Positions 20,368 to 26,561 of a DNA stretch of 34,408 nucleotides are shown here, piece after piece. Origin of the DNA: a virus. Both the position numbers and the translations under genes were made by a program. The DNA lies in IMG/VR virus record IMGVR_UViG_3300030430_003330, positions 8,431-42,838 of that record; one strand, given 5' to 3'. The notes under the pieces are model-generated. The model was given only the letters and a program-made list of their open reading frames with translations. It was not told the origin of the DNA and made no database searches. Every line of letters begins with the position of its first letter. Within the stretch, counting starts at the first letter, position 1.

Positions 20368-20832
20368 ATGAAAAAACCAAGTTTCGAAACTATTGACGAT
20401 CAAAAAAGAGAAGAGCGAGTAGCAGGTTACTTAGAGGGAGCGTGGGATGTAACTTGCTACAAGCTTCCCACAAGTTATGGTCTAGATTATTGGATAGAAT
20501 CCAAAGACAAAAGTTATTGGTGTGAAGTCAAATGCAGATCTTTTTCATTTGATAAATACGACACATTTATTTTATCTGTAGCAAAACTGATGAAAGGTGC
20601 TATGTATGCACAATCTACTGGTATCCCATTTATAACCGTATATGCTATGACGGATGGCTTATACTATCATGAATGGGATCCAGATTATGTTTACGATATA
20701 AGGATGAACATATCGCCTGATCCCACTTACGAGGAAGACAACGAGCCTTATGCGCACATACCCAAAGATATGCTAAAATGTTTAAGTGATAAGCCACTAG
20801 GCTTAGATAGGAGTGAAATAGGAATATGTTAG
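20368..20832 (+). CDS. PD-(D/E)XK nuclease-fold protein (154 aa)
   Basis: Two bases after the prim-pol stop, with GAGG before the ATG. Motifs: Glu15/16 in a helix, YGLDYWIES with Asp40, and WCEVKCRSFS with Glu53 and Lys55, then a helix starting YDTFILSVAKLMK. This is the layout of the small PD-(D/E)XK endonucleases, such as Holliday-junction resolvase-like or VRR-type proteins. It probably cuts branched or damaged DNA in replication (inference). The C-terminal 50 residues are acidic and Pro-rich. The holin gene starts 7 bases before its stop. Confidence 0.75.
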   Translation: MKKPSFETIDDQKREERVAGYLEGAWDVTCYKLPTSYGLDYWIESKDKSYWCEVKCRSFSFDKYDTFILSVAKLMKGAMYAQSTGIPFITVYAMTDGLYYHEWDPDYVYDIRMNISPDPTYEEDNEPYAHIPKDMLKCLSDKPLGLDRSEIGIC

Positions 20833-21311
20833 ACAAGTTAAAATCAATAGTTGGTGTAGTAGCACCAACATTAGCACAAGGCTTGGCAAATCCAGCAGGT
20901 GCTATCTCAGGTTTAGCTATAAATGCAATAGCTGAAAAATTAGGTATAGAAGCAAACCCACAAGCAGTATCTAAAGCTTTGGGCGACCACCCAACAAAAG
21001 AACAAATGTTGGAACTGAAAAAAATTGAGCAAGATTTCAAATTAGAAATGAAACAGTTAGGGTTGGATGTTTACAAAGTTCAAACCCAAGATATACAAAA
21101 TGCTAGAAAAACATTTAGTGGCGATTGGACATCTAAAATACTAGGATTCATTACAATAGGTGGTTTTATGGGTTATATATTTTTGGTAACAATACAACCG
21201 CCTGAACAAAATAGTGAGGCTTTAATTAACCTTGTGCTAGGTTACTTAGGTGGATTAGCAAGTGCAGTCATATCATTTTACTTTGGTGCTTCACATAAAA
21301 AGGACGAGTAG
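20826..21311 (+). CDS. Holin-like 3-TM protein (161 aa)
   Basis: A Leu/Ala-rich amphipathic N-terminal half (VAPTLAQGLANPAGAISGLA) is followed by a charged helix and, at about 105-155, two clear transmembrane stretches (LGFITIGGFMGYIFLVTIQP and a Leu/Gly-rich segment). This fits the 3-TM holin family of phages and gene transfer agents. Holins let lytic enzymes reach the cell wall. It overlaps the nuclease gene by 7 bases and ends inside a stem of the structured RNA at 21306. No endolysin gene was recognised in the window. Confidence 0.75.
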   Translation: MLDKLKSIVGVVAPTLAQGLANPAGAISGLAINAIAEKLGIEANPQAVSKALGDHPTKEQMLELKKIEQDFKLEMKQLGLDVYKVQTQDIQNARKTFSGDWTSKILGFITIGGFMGYIFLVTIQPPEQNSEALINLVLGYLGGLASAVISFYFGASHKKDE

Positions 21312-21378
21312 TCTGTTGACTAGCGTAAAGCTCATTGGTTTCCATACAAAACCAGGGGAACATCAGACTACTCTTTTT
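21306..21378 (+). ncRNA. Structured RNA element with terminator-like end
   Basis: A perfect 10-bp stem, GAGTAGTCTG (21306-21315) with CAGACTACTC (21364-21373), encloses 48 bases and is followed by TTTTT (21374-21378). The enclosed part has small stems AGC/GCT and TGGTTT/AAACCA, so the whole could be a three-way junction. The closing stem contains the holin stop codon, and the U-tract ends two bases before the next ATG. It may terminate or attenuate transcription, or control entry to the csg cassette. No known riboswitch class recognised. Confidence 0.6.
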
Positions 21379-21380
21379 AC

Positions 21381-21731
21381 ATGCAAGATATAGTTACAAT
21401 TATTCAACAAGTAGGTTTTCCGATAGCAGCAGCTCTTGGGTTGGGTTGGTTCATTTACAAACTAATCATGCGTATTGTTGATGGTATGGAAAATAAATTA
21501 GATGTAGTTGACGAAAAAGTAGCAGAACAGATAACCGCTATGGAACAAAGACTAGGCACTAAATTAGACTCTCAACATGGTATCTTAGTGGCTTTGATAG
21601 ATCGTATCCGAAGTTTGGACAATGAGATTATTAGACAAGACACCTTAATAAAAACTATACTAGGAGTACCACAGTTAATTGATAGTAATAAAATTGCTAA
21701 GGCAGACAGAGATGATCAAAGAAAAGATTAG
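21381..21731 (+). CDS. Membrane-anchored coiled-coil protein (116 aa)
   Basis: One transmembrane helix at about residues 12-33 (FPIAAALGLGWFIYKLIMRI) followed by a coiled coil to about residue 90 (DEKVAEQITAMEQRLGTKLD) and a basic tail. Small one-TM coiled-coil proteins of this type lie in many phage lysis regions, as XhlA-like or spanin/holin accessory proteins. It starts directly after the U-tract of the RNA element, without a clear Shine-Dalgarno. Its end overlaps the 33-aa gene by 20 bases. Lysis role is inferred from position and topology. Confidence 0.7.
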   Translation: MQDIVTIIQQVGFPIAAALGLGWFIYKLIMRIVDGMENKLDVVDEKVAEQITAMEQRLGTKLDSQHGILVALIDRIRSLDNEIIRQDTLIKTILGVPQLIDSNKIAKADRDDQRKD

Positions 21732-21813
21732 ATATAAAACAGACTGGCAAAAATTAACAGTTTGGATTTTAATGATAAGCTTTTGTTTGTGGGTTTGGAG
21801 TTTGGTTCTATGA
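21712..21813 (+). CDS. 33-residue one-TM protein
   Basis: The frame ATG 21712-21714 to TGA 21811-21813 encodes a basic head (MIKEKIRYKTDWQK) and one hydrophobic helix (LTVWILMISFCLWVWSLVL). The basic-inside plan predicts the N-terminus in the cytoplasm. It overlaps the upstream gene by 20 bases and the CsgF ATG by four (ATGA), fitting coupled translation. It may be a lysis or pore accessory peptide. Too short for homology; the TM character and overlaps are the support. Confidence 0.5.
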   Translation: MIKEKIRYKTDWQKLTVWILMISFCLWVWSLVL

Positions 21814-22286
21814 ATGACGATTATTACAAAGACAAATATAAAAGGACAGGTTGCGCAATATACTTAATCCCATTCTTAATGCTTCCTGTCCTTGCTGATG
21901 AAATTAAATTTCAGTTTAAGTCTCCATCATTTAGTGGTGTTGGTACAAGTCAGCATTATTTAACTATTGACGAGCAAGAGTATTCTAGGCGTGAAGCTTT
22001 GGAGGCTGAAATAAAAGCATTACAAGACGAGCTACAAAGAGATGCTGAGAACACAACGTTAGCAAGATTTTTAAGAAACTTTGAGTCTAGAGTTTACGCA
22101 CAATTATCCAGGCAATTAGTAGATCAATTATTTGGCGAAGATCCAGCAGATCAAGGCAGCTTCACTCTGTTCGATAATCTGATAACTTGGACTAGCGACG
22201 GTATAACTATTACAATGTCTATATTTAATGAAACTACTGGCGAAACAACTACTATCACTATCCCTATTGGGGACTTTGGTTTCTAG
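21810..22286 (+). CDS. csgF: CsgF-like curli accessory protein (158 aa)
   Basis: CsgF binds the CsgG pore at the cell surface and helps nucleate curli fibres. I chose ATG 21810-21812 because GGAG lies nine bases upstream; an in-frame TTG 16 codons earlier is weaker. Residues 1-29 form a signal peptide (CAIYLIPFLMLPVLA, cut before Asp30). The mature start IKFQFKSPSFSGVGTSQHYL matches the pore-binding start of E. coli CsgF (FQFRNPNFGG). The C-terminal GETTTITIPIGDFGF matches its GQTSTIQV end. The middle is a helical insert, making it somewhat longer than E. coli CsgF. Its last 59 bases also encode the CsgG start. Confidence 0.85.
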   Translation: MNDDYYKDKYKRTGCAIYLIPFLMLPVLADEIKFQFKSPSFSGVGTSQHYLTIDEQEYSRREALEAEIKALQDELQRDAENTTLARFLRNFESRVYAQLSRQLVDQLFGEDPADQGSFTLFDNLITWTSDGITITMSIFNETTGETTTITIPIGDFGF

Positions 22287-23073
22287 TTGCACTACACATC
22301 TATCTTACATATCTCCTTGTTTACAAAATCCAGATAACGATTACAAAGATGTTGTCACTATAGTCGGTAAGGCAGAGTGTTTTTCTAAATCTGCTTTTAT
22401 CAACTTACCTGTAACTGATGCTATAAAACAAGTAAAACCAGCGAAGCAAAGACCTGTAGTTGCTGTTTATGCTTTTCCTGATGCAACGGGACAACGTAAA
22501 TCAATTGATGGTTATGCTAGTTTTAGTTCAGCACTAACACAAGCACCTGAAGCTTATGTGATAAGAGCGTTAAAACAATCACGTTTTTTTCGTGTAGTAG
22601 AACGAGTAGGTATAGATCATGTTACAAGAGAACGACAAATAATAAGATCCACAAGAGAAAGATTTGAAGAAGACGATCAGCAACTACCCTTATTGTTTGC
22701 AGGCACTATCCTTGAAGGTGTCATAATTGATTACAACACTAACCTGCTTACTGGTGGTATGGGTGCTAGATATTTAGGTATAGGTAATTCAAAACAATAT
22801 CGTGAAGATACTGTTGTGGTGTCTATGCGTTTAGTTTCTGTATCGACAGGTGAAATATTAATAGAAAATTTGACTACTAAAACTATCTTATCTGTAGGTT
22901 TATCAAACGATTTTTTTAGATATATTGCAGATGGTACTAAACTGGTTGAGTTCGAAAGTGGTAATGCTATGAATGAAAGTAAGTCTATAGCTTTGCAAGC
23001 AGCGATAGAAACTGGTATTGTAGACATAATAGCCCAAGGTGAAGAGAAGAGTTATTGGCAATATATGGAATGA
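22228..23073 (+). CDS. csgG: CsgG-like outer-membrane curli secretion channel (281 aa)
   Basis: CsgG forms a nonameric beta-barrel pore in the outer membrane that exports curli subunits. A lipoprotein signal with lipobox LVSSC gives acylated Cys21. Matches to E. coli CsgG run through the core: VVAVYAFPDATGQRK, VGIDHVTRERQIIR, ILEGVIIDYNTN, GGMGARYLGIG, MRLVSVSTGEIL, TKTILSVGLSNDFFRYI and AAIETGIVDII. In the constriction loop, Phe99 fits the conserved Phe56 while the Asn55 position seems to be Ser98. Length is typical. The signal peptide is encoded in an overlap with csgF. Phage csgG-like genes have, from memory, been noted in some marine phages. Confidence 0.93.
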   Translation: MKLLAKQLLSLSLLGTLVSSCTTHLSYISPCLQNPDNDYKDVVTIVGKAECFSKSAFINLPVTDAIKQVKPAKQRPVVAVYAFPDATGQRKSIDGYASFSSALTQAPEAYVIRALKQSRFFRVVERVGIDHVTRERQIIRSTRERFEEDDQQLPLLFAGTILEGVIIDYNTNLLTGGMGARYLGIGNSKQYREDTVVVSMRLVSVSTGEILIENLTTKTILSVGLSNDFFRYIADGTKLVEFESGNAMNESKSIALQAAIETGIVDIIAQGEEKSYWQYME

Positions 23074-23792
23074 TTATGCGTATAATTTTTTTACTTTTAT
23101 CTTTAGGTTTATTTGCAGATGACGAAATATTCGTTGAGCAAACTGGTTCAAATGCCACTATAAAGTTAGAACAACTTGGTAGTAGCAACTTGATCGGTGG
23201 CACAAGTGCTGTTTCTGGCACAATGACTGCTTTGGATCTAGACGGTACAGATATGACACTTACTATTAATCAAATAGGAAGTAGTAACATATTCAGATCA
23301 GATGGCATAAATTCAGATAATGTAACAGGTTATTTTGACTTTCAAGGCGACTCAAACGTGCTTGATATTTTGTTAAATAGCAACGGTGCATATTCTGCAG
23401 ACTACGCCAATCTTAATGTTCAAGTTGCAGGTGGAAGCAATACATTTGATATTGAGATAGGTGAGGCATCTAATGCTGATTATTTAGATTTGGATTGGAT
23501 TATAGATGGAGATAATAACGAATTTGAATTTGATATTGATTACGAAAATGCTACTAACTATATAGATGTTTTTGGAGATGGCAACGAACTTACTTTTTCT
23601 GGAAGTGGATATGCAGGCACAAGTGCTAGCGATAGTGGCTATTTTTATTTAGATCTAGATGGTAGTTCTAACACCTTCACTATTACACAATCATCAACCC
23701 TAGCTAGAGACTGGCTCAAGATTACAACAAATGGATCTAATTCGACTTTTTGTGTGGTACAAAATGACGGTGGGACTTCTACTACATGCTAG
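23070..23792 (+). CDS. Curlin-like secreted repeat protein (240 aa)
   Basis: The likely start is ATG 23070, an ATGA overlap with the csgG stop; an upstream TTG is possible. Residues 1-16 are a signal peptide ending LFA, then DDE. The mature protein has nine strand-turn-strand repeats of the form xxGxxNxxxI. The first three carry curlin-type Gln-x-Gly-Ser-(Ser)-Asn (EQTGSN, EQLGSSN, NQIGSSN); the later ones keep Gly/Asn but are Asp-rich (for example VAGGSNTFDI, VFGDGNELTF, LDGSSNTFTI). Being next to csgF and csgG makes it the likely cargo. The last residue is a Cys, as is one 13 residues before. No CsgB-like partner is seen. Confidence 0.78.
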   Translation: MIMRIIFLLLSLGLFADDEIFVEQTGSNATIKLEQLGSSNLIGGTSAVSGTMTALDLDGTDMTLTINQIGSSNIFRSDGINSDNVTGYFDFQGDSNVLDILLNSNGAYSADYANLNVQVAGGSNTFDIEIGEASNADYLDLDWIIDGDNNEFEFDIDYENATNYIDVFGDGNELTFSGSGYAGTSASDSGYFYLDLDGSSNTFTITQSSTLARDWLKITTNGSNSTFCVVQNDGGTSTTC

Positions 23793-24816
23793 TAGTATAG
23801 GTGACATTACAGAACTGAGAGGGTATGGGCAAATCTTAAGAGATGAGCCCTATCCTGCAGTTTTAAACTTCGATATAAATTCTTATGATGACGTTCAAAC
23901 TAGAGCTGGGCGTATCGGTATTACCTTTCTTGATAATTCAACCGTTAAATTAACTGAACACTCTTCACTAATTATTGATGAATATATATATGATGCGAAT
24001 CCTAGTAACAGCAAAATGGCCTTACAGTTTGCTAGTGGCACTATACGGTTTATTTCAGGCCAACTAGCAAAAAACAATATATCTCTGAAAACACCAACCG
24101 CTGATATTGCAGTCAGAGGTACAGACTTCACTTGTACGGTAGATGAAACAGGTAAGTCTTTGATAATACTTTTGCCTAACGAGTTTGGCGATCCTAGTGG
24201 AGAGATAGTAGTGTCTACAGCTATGGGCCAGGTTGTACTTAATCAACCTTACCAAGCCACGACTACTAGGGTATATGAGCAATCACCAACCAAACCAGTA
24301 ACATTAGATATAGATCTACAGTTTATAGATAACATGTTAATTATTAGTCCACCTAAAGAAGAAAATGTTATTGCAGAAGAAAACACTAGTAATACCGCAG
24401 ATTACTTAGATTTTACAGATCTTGATGTAGATTTATTAGAAGAAGACTTATTAGAAGAAGATCCTGATTTTGAATTTACAGAGCTAGATATAGACTACCT
24501 CAACGTAAACTTTTTAGAAGATCTGCTAGATGTATTAGATTTATTAGAAGAAGAACAAGAAACAGAATTATTAGGACAGGTTTCAGGTGTTGACATACAA
24601 GGCACAAGTATTGGTCAAGATCTTGAAACAAACATCACAACTATTGTAGATGGAGATACTCTGCGTTTAATAAGAAAAGTTACACAAAATGCAGAACTAC
24701 AAATAAATGCTGATCAATCTTACACAGTAATTTTTACACAAGATGGTGTTACAAGAACTGTCAAGATAAACGGTGGTACTAATTCCAGTATTACCATATT
24801 ACAAAGTGCAGGATGA
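23731..24816 (+). CDS. FecR-domain periplasmic protein (361 aa)
   Basis: Contains a FecR domain at about 45-165: ITFLDNSTVKLTEHSSLIID, FASGTIRFISG, TPTADIAVRGTDFTCTV and VSTAMGQVVL. FecR domains act in the envelope and, in many bacteria, lie next to CHASE2-cyclase genes as here. The N-terminus has a basic head and a short hydrophobic run (MTVGLLLHASS), likely a signal peptide; Met12 (23764) is an alternative start. Residues about 224-282 are very acidic (DVDLLEEDLLEEDPDFEFTE). A beta-rich C-terminal domain follows. It overlaps the curlin gene by 62 bases. No anti-sigma TM segment, so it is not a classical FecR regulator. Confidence 0.82.
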   Translation: MDLIRLFVWYKMTVGLLLHASSIGDITELRGYGQILRDEPYPAVLNFDINSYDDVQTRAGRIGITFLDNSTVKLTEHSSLIIDEYIYDANPSNSKMALQFASGTIRFISGQLAKNNISLKTPTADIAVRGTDFTCTVDETGKSLIILLPNEFGDPSGEIVVSTAMGQVVLNQPYQATTTRVYEQSPTKPVTLDIDLQFIDNMLIISPPKEENVIAEENTSNTADYLDFTDLDVDLLEEDLLEEDPDFEFTELDIDYLNVNFLEDLLDVLDLLEEEQETELLGQVSGVDIQGTSIGQDLETNITTIVDGDTLRLIRKVTQNAELQINADQSYTVIFTQDGVTRTVKINGGTNSSITILQSAG

Positions 24817-26561
24817 GACTTAAAATATTTTTTGTACTATTAGGTATATTATCAATACCGCTGATTACACAATCTACACCTACTGAAATATTAAAATTAA
24901 AAGTCTTTGATGCTTTGGTAGAGAAACATAAACCATCTGAATACTTCACTATAATTAATATTGATGAATCTACTATACAGGCAGAGGGTGGTTGGCCTCT
25001 ACCAAGATCAAGAATAGGACAGATAACAGAAGAAATATTTGCAAATGGTGCAATAGGTGTTGGTTGGGTGTTATCATTTGTAGATAAAGACAGGTTTGAG
25101 AATGGTGGTGATGACTACCTCTTTAAAAAGTTAAGTACATATCCCACAGTTGTTGCCACTTTCTCATATGACAACCAAGTATATCCATCACCAGAGGGAA
25201 CCGTAATCTTAGGGGAAGATGCTCCTGGTATTTTATTAGAGGGTCATTTACCTAACATACCTGGTATGTCAGATGTAACGTTAGAGGGAATAGTTTCAGC
25301 ACCTGTTGACGTTGATAACTTAGTAAGACGGCTACCTCTTATGTATCGTATACCTGACGGCTGGGTGCCTAGCTTCGGTACTCAAGTTTATAAGTTGCTT
25401 ACTGGCTCTGATACTTATGTAATAAAAACTAACGAGTACGGTTTAGAAGAGATCAGAGTAAAAGGTATACCGCCTGTTAAGGTCGATAGTCTAGGTCGGA
25501 AATGGATAAGTTGGGTCGATACACCTGAAACAACTTTGTCCGAAATGCAAGTTGCTAATAAATTTGTATTCGTTGGTGTGACTGGTAAGGGCATAATGCC
25601 GCAAGTGGCTACAAGTTCTGGTGAATTATTAGAGCCACATAAAATACAAGCTGCTCTAGCCGAGTCAATCTTGATACAAAACTCACCATATATACCAGAT
25701 TGGCATTTAGCGGCCGAAATTATAATTTTTGGAATTTTTTGCTTTCTTATTTGGCTTCTAACGCAATCTTTTGGAGTTACTAATGGTTTGGTAAGCTTTT
25801 TATTACTATTTTTGGCTACAGGTTATACAGGAGCTTACATGATAGGTAGGGGTATTTTACTGGATTTTTCTTATACTTTAGTGTCTGGATTTATAACTGG
25901 GGCTGTATCTTTCTACTTAAACTTCGAAAAACAATATAAATTACGTCAACAAATTAAAAAACAGTTCGAGCATTATTTGGATCCAAGACAAGTAAAACGT
26001 TTGCAAGACAATCCTGACCTTTTAAAGTTAGGTGGTGAAAAAAGATATTGCACTTACTTATTCACAGATGTTAGAGGTTTTACTGCTTTATCAGAAAAAC
26101 TTGAACCTGAACAAGTTACTGAGATTATGAACAAAGCTTTGACTATTCAAGCTAATGCAGTTCAACGTAACGGAGGTATGGTTGATAAATATATCGGTGA
26201 CGCTATGATGGCAATCTTTAATGCACCTATGGATCTTATGCACCATGAAGAAGTTGCTGTTAAGACAGGGCTTCAAATACGAGACGAAATAAAAGCAGCA
26301 AAGTTAGGTATTGAAATTGGTATAGGGATAAATTCAGGGCCAGCTGTTGTAGGTAATATGGGGTCAGATTCACGTTTCGATTATAGTGCTATTGGTGATG
26401 CAGTCAATACAGCGGCTAGATTAGAAAGTGCAACTAAAGATCGTAAGGTTGATATCTTGATTGGTAAATCTACAGAAGATCTTTGTGGTTATCATTTGCA
26501 GAAACTAAAACCTATTGCAGTAAAAGGTAAGTCTGAACCTTTAGAAATATATACTATATGA
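24813..26561 (+). CDS. CHASE2-domain class III adenylate/guanylate cyclase (582 aa)
   Basis: A membrane sensor that should make cAMP (or cGMP). An N-terminal TM or signal anchor (about 4-20), periplasmic CHASE2 domain (about 24-295, with LKVFDALVEKH and VGWVLSFVDKDRF), three TM helices (about 300-368), a linker FEHYLDPRQVKRLQDNPD, then the cyclase domain (about 408-582). Catalytic residues are all present: metal-binding Asp419 (FTDVRGFT) and Asp463 (YIGDAMMA), purine-binding Lys459 and Asp529 (AIGDAVNTAARLE), and Asn532/Arg536. Lys plus Asp at the purine sites points to ATP. Full length, ATGA overlap with the FecR gene. Rare in phages, as far as I know. Confidence 0.92.
   Translation: MRLKIFFVLLGILSIPLITQSTPTEILKLKVFDALVEKHKPSEYFTIINIDESTIQAEGGWPLPRSRIGQITEEIFANGAIGVGWVLSFVDKDRFENGGDDYLFKKLSTYPTVVATFSYDNQVYPSPEGTVILGEDAPGILLEGHLPNIPGMSDVTLEGIVSAPVDVDNLVRRLPLMYRIPDGWVPSFGTQVYKLLTGSDTYVIKTNEYGLEEIRVKGIPPVKVDSLGRKWISWVDTPETTLSEMQVANKFVFVGVTGKGIMPQVATSSGELLEPHKIQAALAESILIQNSPYIPDWHLAAEIIIFGIFCFLIWLLTQSFGVTNGLVSFLLLFLATGYTGAYMIGRGILLDFSYTLVSGFITGAVSFYLNFEKQYKLRQQIKKQFEHYLDPRQVKRLQDNPDLLKLGGEKRYCTYLFTDVRGFTALSEKLEPEQVTEIMNKALTIQANAVQRNGGMVDKYIGDAMMAIFNAPMDLMHHEEVAVKTGLQIRDEIKAAKLGIEIGIGINSGPAVVGNMGSDSRFDYSAIGDAVNTAARLESATKDRKVDILIGKSTEDLCGYHLQKLKPIAVKGKSEPLEIYTI

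Follow-up and report, generated by a model that had tools for sequence, protein, structure and literature searches.

Gene content and layout of the cassette

The window, that is, the whole stretch of 34,408 nucleotides analysed here, lies within a 42.8 kb virus record and carries, from 21810 to 26561 and entirely on the plus strand, a run of genes encoding CsgF, CsgG, a curlin-like protein, a FecR-domain protein and a CHASE2 class III cyclase. The preliminary description had put these five genes at this place and on this strand, and Pfam matches together with a reading of the sequence agree, in the case of the curlin-like protein through a family-level match. The papers cited below as PMC9599517, PMC7029224 and PMC9004378 are, we assume, those of Wittmers et al. 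2022, Zaragoza-Solas 2020 and Buchholz 2022, respectively. The features of the locus are as follows.

20826..21311, plus strand: neighbour gene for a 161 aa protein of PHROG 1544 (unknown function), found beside the module in many relatives and not part of it
21308..21380, plus strand: structured RNA, a three-way junction with GAGTAGTCTG/CAGACTACTC as its closing strands; next come a T-run and the start codon of the gene at 21381
21381..21731, plus strand: first module gene, for a 116 aa protein with a single transmembrane (TM) segment and a coiled coil, both assigned from sequence
21810..22286, plus strand: CsgF, curli pore accessory protein/chaperone (Pfam CsgF, 6.2e-16; PHROG 35372)
22228..23073, plus strand: CsgG, outer-membrane lipoprotein pore of type VIII secretion (Pfam, 1.4e-44)
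23070..23792, plus strand: predicted curlin-like amyloid subunit with a signal peptide, repeats and an invariant C-terminal Cys pair
23731..24816 (start possibly 23764), plus strand: secreted FecR-domain protein (Pfam FecR, 4.1e-12, residues 53-144)
24322..24813, plus strand: virus-specific C-terminal extension of the FecR protein, residues 198-361, with an acidic segment and a beta tail (about 290-361), ending in GTNSSITILQSAG
24813..26561, plus strand: CHASE2-domain class III adenylate cyclase (Pfam CHASE2, 2.1e-25; Guanylate_cyc, 2e-21)
24861..25739 and 26046..26552, plus strand: CHASE2 and cyclase sub-domains, respectively, of the latter (Pfam)

The overlaps between successive genes, likewise described before, can be read directly from the sequence: CsgF and CsgG share 59 nt, CsgG and the curlin gene an ATGA at 23070-23073 (the start of the curlin gene being corrected here to the ATG at 23070), the curlin and FecR genes 62 nt, or 29 nt with the FecR start at 23764, and FecR and the cyclase another ATGA at 24813-24816.

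To assess conservation, we surveyed 80 viral loci anchored on the cyclase and 75 further ones anchored on CsgG; some of the latter share contigs with the former, so that there is a degree of dependence between the two sets. On every contig of sufficient length, the order coil-CsgF-CsgG-curlin-FecR-cyclase is the same and the curlin gene is kept, and both FecR and the cyclase are present in all 47 of those CsgG-anchored viral loci that extend far enough downstream, as expected of the single conserved unit that had been proposed. The gene at 21381-21731, which had been taken for a flank, lies directly upstream of CsgF in 61 of the 61 loci with enough upstream sequence and therefore belongs to the unit. 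The module is an obligate six-gene unit, with the coiled-coil gene as its sixth member. All of its genes are under strong purifying selection, with dN/dS values of 0.02-0.15 for the five genes from CsgF to the cyclase and 0.008 for the coiled-coil gene.

The coiled-coil protein yields weak matches to holin PHROGs. It has been labelled 'HK', for histidine kinase, in PMC9599517; this label finds no support, as the protein is 116 aa long and a Pfam search up to an E-value of 10 detected no HisKA, HATPase_c or other kinase domain. The gene occurs in one or two copies per module.

The carrier phage

The large terminase subunit (TerL) encoded in the record is 63% identical to that of 023Pt_psg01 and about 60% identical to those of HTVC023P and HTVC027P, and the portal protein is 44-46% identical to its counterparts in all three. 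Because these are the best matches, we assign the carrier to the HTVC023P-type pelagipodophages, relatives that point to SAR11 as the probable host. The module shares its strand with the replication genes (Prim-Pol, exonuclease) and converges on the virion genes, and the minus-strand genes downstream are indeed of virion type, as had been noted. The concern that the contig might be a chimera is dispelled by the same genes on both sides of the module in the independent assemblies L004, L005 and L008. The PHROG 1544 gene, which we take to be holin-like, is found before or after the module in relatives. Phage-like contigs that bear the module (L084, L085, L087-L091) also turn up in genome bins labelled Neomarinimicrobiota, Maricaulis, Saprospirales, Sphingobacteriales and Planctomycetaceae; two of them, L084 and L088 (PBPT01000002.1, 60.8 kb, titled Neomarinimicrobiota), seem to be opposite ends of a single circular phage genome that was cut within the module.

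A structured RNA precedes the first gene

The 73 nucleotides from 21308 to 21380 fold into the three-way junction with a z-score of -3.2 against shuffles. The closing stem comprises 10 pairs, compensatory changes are seen at 5 of the 18 consensus pairs among 13 sequences, and the junction UUGACU/CUCA/GGGAACA is conserved. A known riboswitch was sought at this position, and Rfam gave no match even at a low threshold. The element is limited to the clade of the window; elsewhere, the position is occupied by a simple hairpin (GGGCTGGT...ACCAGCCC) or lacks one. It may serve as a terminator or attenuator for the module. A promoter scan gave matches no more frequent than in shuffled sequences.

The secretion half of the module

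Three components of type VIII secretion are found at the locus: a CsgG pore lipoprotein with a conserved core, CsgF and, at the family level, a curlin-repeat subunit. CsgG has the lipobox VSSC, with an invariant Cys21, and matches the CsgG structure in the PDB (1.8e-38 over residues 75-278). CsgF has a signal peptide, and its mature form starts with DEIKFQFKSPSFSG. Sequence searches of the PDB with CsgF, the curlin-like protein and the FecR protein returned nothing useful. A Pfam scan of the module genes found no CsgE gate among them; published phage modules are likewise reported to be devoid of CsgE, which is not essential in E. coli (PMC7029224).

In the window copy, the curlin repeat stays below the Pfam threshold (0.011), and Curlin_rpt is matched by 24 of the 48 aligned family members, which include four annotated curlins of cultured phages (best match, 5.2e-08). 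The protein is a predicted beta-solenoid: from 44 sequences, AlphaFold2 confidently models an all-beta fold made of repeats (pLDDT 86.5, pTM 0.82), so that a prediction on which the preliminary description had staked its reading came out in its favour. The search of the PDB with the model fold gave no significant match, and several of the insignificant ones are beta-solenoids. The invariant residues, numbered from the ATG at 23076, are Q22, Q33, Q205, Q229, C226 and C238. The C226/C238 pair is invariant in the podophage-type viral curlins (44 aligned copies) and is a possible disulfide cap.

The FecR protein and its viral extension

At its N-terminus, the FecR protein has a signal-peptide-like segment, and its core matches the fold of the periplasmic domain of PupR (6ovk). 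Its name recalls the iron anti-sigma regulators (FecI/FecR/FecA); the cytoplasmic anti-sigma domain and the TM segment that precede the FecR domain in that arrangement are missing here, and Pfam detected no anti-sigma domain in the protein and its 42 aligned relatives. We conclude that it is not a FecI/FecR-type anti-sigma factor, because of the signal-peptide-like start and because FecR is the only Pfam domain that the protein and these relatives have in common. A short Foldseek match to 5ix9, a cell-surface anchoring domain, could not be placed within the sequence of the protein and was set aside.

Beyond the core, all complete viral copies carry an extension of roughly 160 residues, modelled as an acidic segment with low confidence followed by a beta-rich tail with good confidence. 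A hidden Markov model of this extension matches 8 of the 8 viral loci in genome bins and none of the 72 bacterial FecR loci; as a control, the model of the FecR domain itself matches 73 bacterial open reading frames (ORFs). The extreme C-terminus (for example, GSSSSITITQ) resembles the curlin strand GSSNTFNITQ, and Q358 is invariant. The likeness of the tail to the curlin repeat is suggestive only: profile comparison gives a probability of 4%, none of 60 shuffles scored better although the best was nearly equal, and, for a typical FecR tail, about 7% of its shuffled versions do as well. These statistics speak for a weak resemblance and do not support a claim of firm homology. In one alphaproteobacterial locus (L094), the FecR ORF is 743 aa long, and its C-terminus, HNFFVTDGHRVDLVHNKG, looks to be of the Hint/intein type.

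Two bacterial modules that are separate in bacteria

The pairing of FecR with CHASE2 cyclases, which had been described as common, is genuine in bacteria: a CHASE2 cyclase homologue lies within 600 bp in 57 of the 72 bacterial FecR loci. No csg genes were found beside FecR in these 72 loci, and, unlike the viral protein, the bacterial FecR proteins of such pairs lack the extension. Conversely, bacterial curli operons share CsgG, CsgF and a curlin-repeat protein with the phage module, whereas five alphaproteobacterial csgF loci have neither FecR nor a cyclase within about 8 kb, and canonical bacterial curli operons are described as having neither of them (PMC9599517). Thus, the curli half and the FecR/cyclase half are separate in bacteria. 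A related arrangement is the biofilm-regulating BiofilmReg operon of Burkholderia (PMC5192318), in which a secreted FecR-domain protein is likewise encoded beside a CHASE2 sensor; in contrast to the phage module, this sensor is a histidine kinase, and there are no csg genes.

Among phages, the search for synteny across viral and bacterial genomes that the preliminary description proposed recovers others with csg genes next to FecR and cyclase, and the idea that the five-gene set is new does not hold, because it was described in PMC9599517, as the cassette CsgF-CsgG-CsgA/B-FecR-(CsgA/B)-AC of HTVC023P-type podophages and pelagimyophages; it is also visible in the Pelagibacter phage HTVC008M and the Methylophilales phage Melnitz. 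The presence of csgGF had been reported in pelagimyophages (PMC7029224) and in phage Melnitz (PMC9004378). The window shares with the module of PMC9599517 the phage type and the order small gene-CsgF-CsgG-CsgA/B-FecR-AC, but has a single curlin gene, an upstream gene without a histidine kinase domain and, in its clade, the preceding RNA element. HTVC008M and Melnitz have CsgF-CsgG-curlin-FecR-curlin2-cyclase on one strand, as in the window except for the second curlin; after the module, the other strand carries a tape-measure gene in HTVC008M and a hypothetical gene in Melnitz, and the two belong to a phage family unrelated to that of the window, with protein identities of 29-47%. What the present analysis adds to the published picture is the viral FecR extension, the bacterial FecR-CHASE2 pairing apart from csg, the scarcity of cAMP receptors and cyclases in the presumed host family, the lack of a receptor in 16 phage records, and the covarying RNA.

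The cyclase and the scarcity of receivers

The cyclase matches bacterial adenylate cyclases in the PDB. The metal, base and transition-state residues D419, D463, K459, S/T525, N532 and R536 are intact in the 74 aligned viral copies apart from two single-residue exceptions, one copy without N532 and one with D at position 525, in keeping with the intact motifs noticed earlier in the window. Lysine and Ser/Thr at the respective positions are expected for a class III adenylate cyclase, and the product, judging from these catalytic residues, should be cyclic AMP.

For the presumed hosts, we used 147 genomes from the family to which a bin titled Candidatus Pelagibacter belongs. Domains of the cNMP-binding type occur in 9 of the 147, and complete CRP-type regulators in 2, with none seen in the other 145; GAF domains, another possible cyclic-nucleotide binder, are present in 17 genomes. 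Class III cyclases exceed the cut-off in 2 of the 147, and in both the viral module is on the contig. A receptor encoded by the phages themselves was also considered and rejected, as 16 phage records, several of them fragments, contain no cNMP-binding domain. With no recognised cAMP receiver in the presumed hosts at large, the signal would need an unrecognised effector.

A proposed exporter with its own sensor, and competing readings

With somewhat better than even probability, we read the module as a phage type VIII secretion unit that comes with a cargo and an envelope sensor of its own and acts during infection. The module genes, which we infer to be co-expressed, would provide CsgG and CsgF for an outer-membrane pore formed during infection; the pore would export the curlin-like beta-solenoid, which could then build up an amyloid-like layer or fibre at the surface of the infected cell. 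Together with the CHASE2 cyclase, which it presumably contacts, the secreted FecR protein would make up a periplasm-facing sensor pair of the bacterial type, the viral FecR tail may dock on curlin or on the pore, and the state of secretion or assembly would then be reported as cAMP production. The family assignments, the six-gene order recovered from two anchors, the curlin model, the catalytic residues and the dN/dS values support this reading, as do the FecR/CHASE2 pairing in bacteria (57/72), the Burkholderia operon (PMC5192318), the exclusively viral extension with its terminal strand resembling curlin, and the metatranscriptomic evidence for expression of such viral curli genes (PMC9599517). 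It is weakened by the lack of CsgE among the genes examined, by the weak likeness of the FecR tail to curlin, by the scarcity of CRP and by the fact that no clumping was seen with Melnitz in culture (PMC9004378). As for the benefit to the phage, published proposals are a block of superinfection or cell aggregation, and PMC9599517 put forward superinfection defence, sibling capture and nutrient import; we weakly favour a surface coat that would hinder co-infection.

In a more specific and, in our estimate, rather unlikely form of the exporter-sensor reading, the viral FecR protein is a coupler that joins a bacterial sensor, an acidic linker and a curlin-like tail and, when held by curlin or CsgG, switches the cyclase according to amyloid export. 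If true, the phage would be making a checkpoint for amyloid secretion, with cAMP as its signal, in a host without a standard cAMP receptor.

There are three other readings. The cyclase and FecR might not regulate curli at all, with cAMP, or the consumption of ATP, acting on host physiology or defence and joint acquisition accounting for the linkage. The presumed hosts themselves have almost no cAMP receptor or cyclase, FecR/CHASE2 pairs exist in bacteria without csg genes, and both facts fit; we nevertheless consider this reading unlikely, given that the joint retention across podophages and myophages and the FecR extension confined to viruses speak for a functional connection with the curli genes. 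The pore itself could be a device for lysis or depolarisation, a substitute for a holin or secretin that times release, with the other genes as passengers or a gate. This was proposed for Melnitz in PMC9004378, and the frequent position of the module beside the small membrane-protein gene of PHROG 1544 and the single-TM coiled-coil protein at its start, with the weak holin matches, are compatible with it. The same paper assumed, however, that csgA/B were missing, whereas the Melnitz record has annotated curlin-repeat genes, and FecR and the cyclase (47/47) are retained along with the curlin on contigs of sufficient length, under purifying selection like that of the pore; we judge this reading distinctly improbable. 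Least probable of all, in our view, is the import of nutrients or cofactors, such as siderophores, by way of a CsgG pore without a gate and under the control of a FecR that responds to iron, as suggested in PMC9599517. The lack of CsgE and the name of FecR accord with it, but the signal-peptide-like start and the missing anti-sigma domain in this protein and its 42 aligned relatives do not; the similarity in fold to the anti-sigma regulators is confined to their periplasmic part, the partner is a cyclase rather than a sigma factor, and the curlin would be left unexplained.

Reports of viral curli genes come from across the ocean and include phages of the most abundant bacteria. An obligate six-gene unit put together from two separate bacterial modules raises questions that can be tested, namely, whether FecR binds curlin and what reads cAMP in SAR11. 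In a few genomes of the presumed SAR11 family, cNMP-binding domains occur in fusion with an ABC/peptidase C39 transporter and with an acyltransferase (L197 and L198); besides CRP, these fusions were the only candidate cyclic-nucleotide receivers seen.
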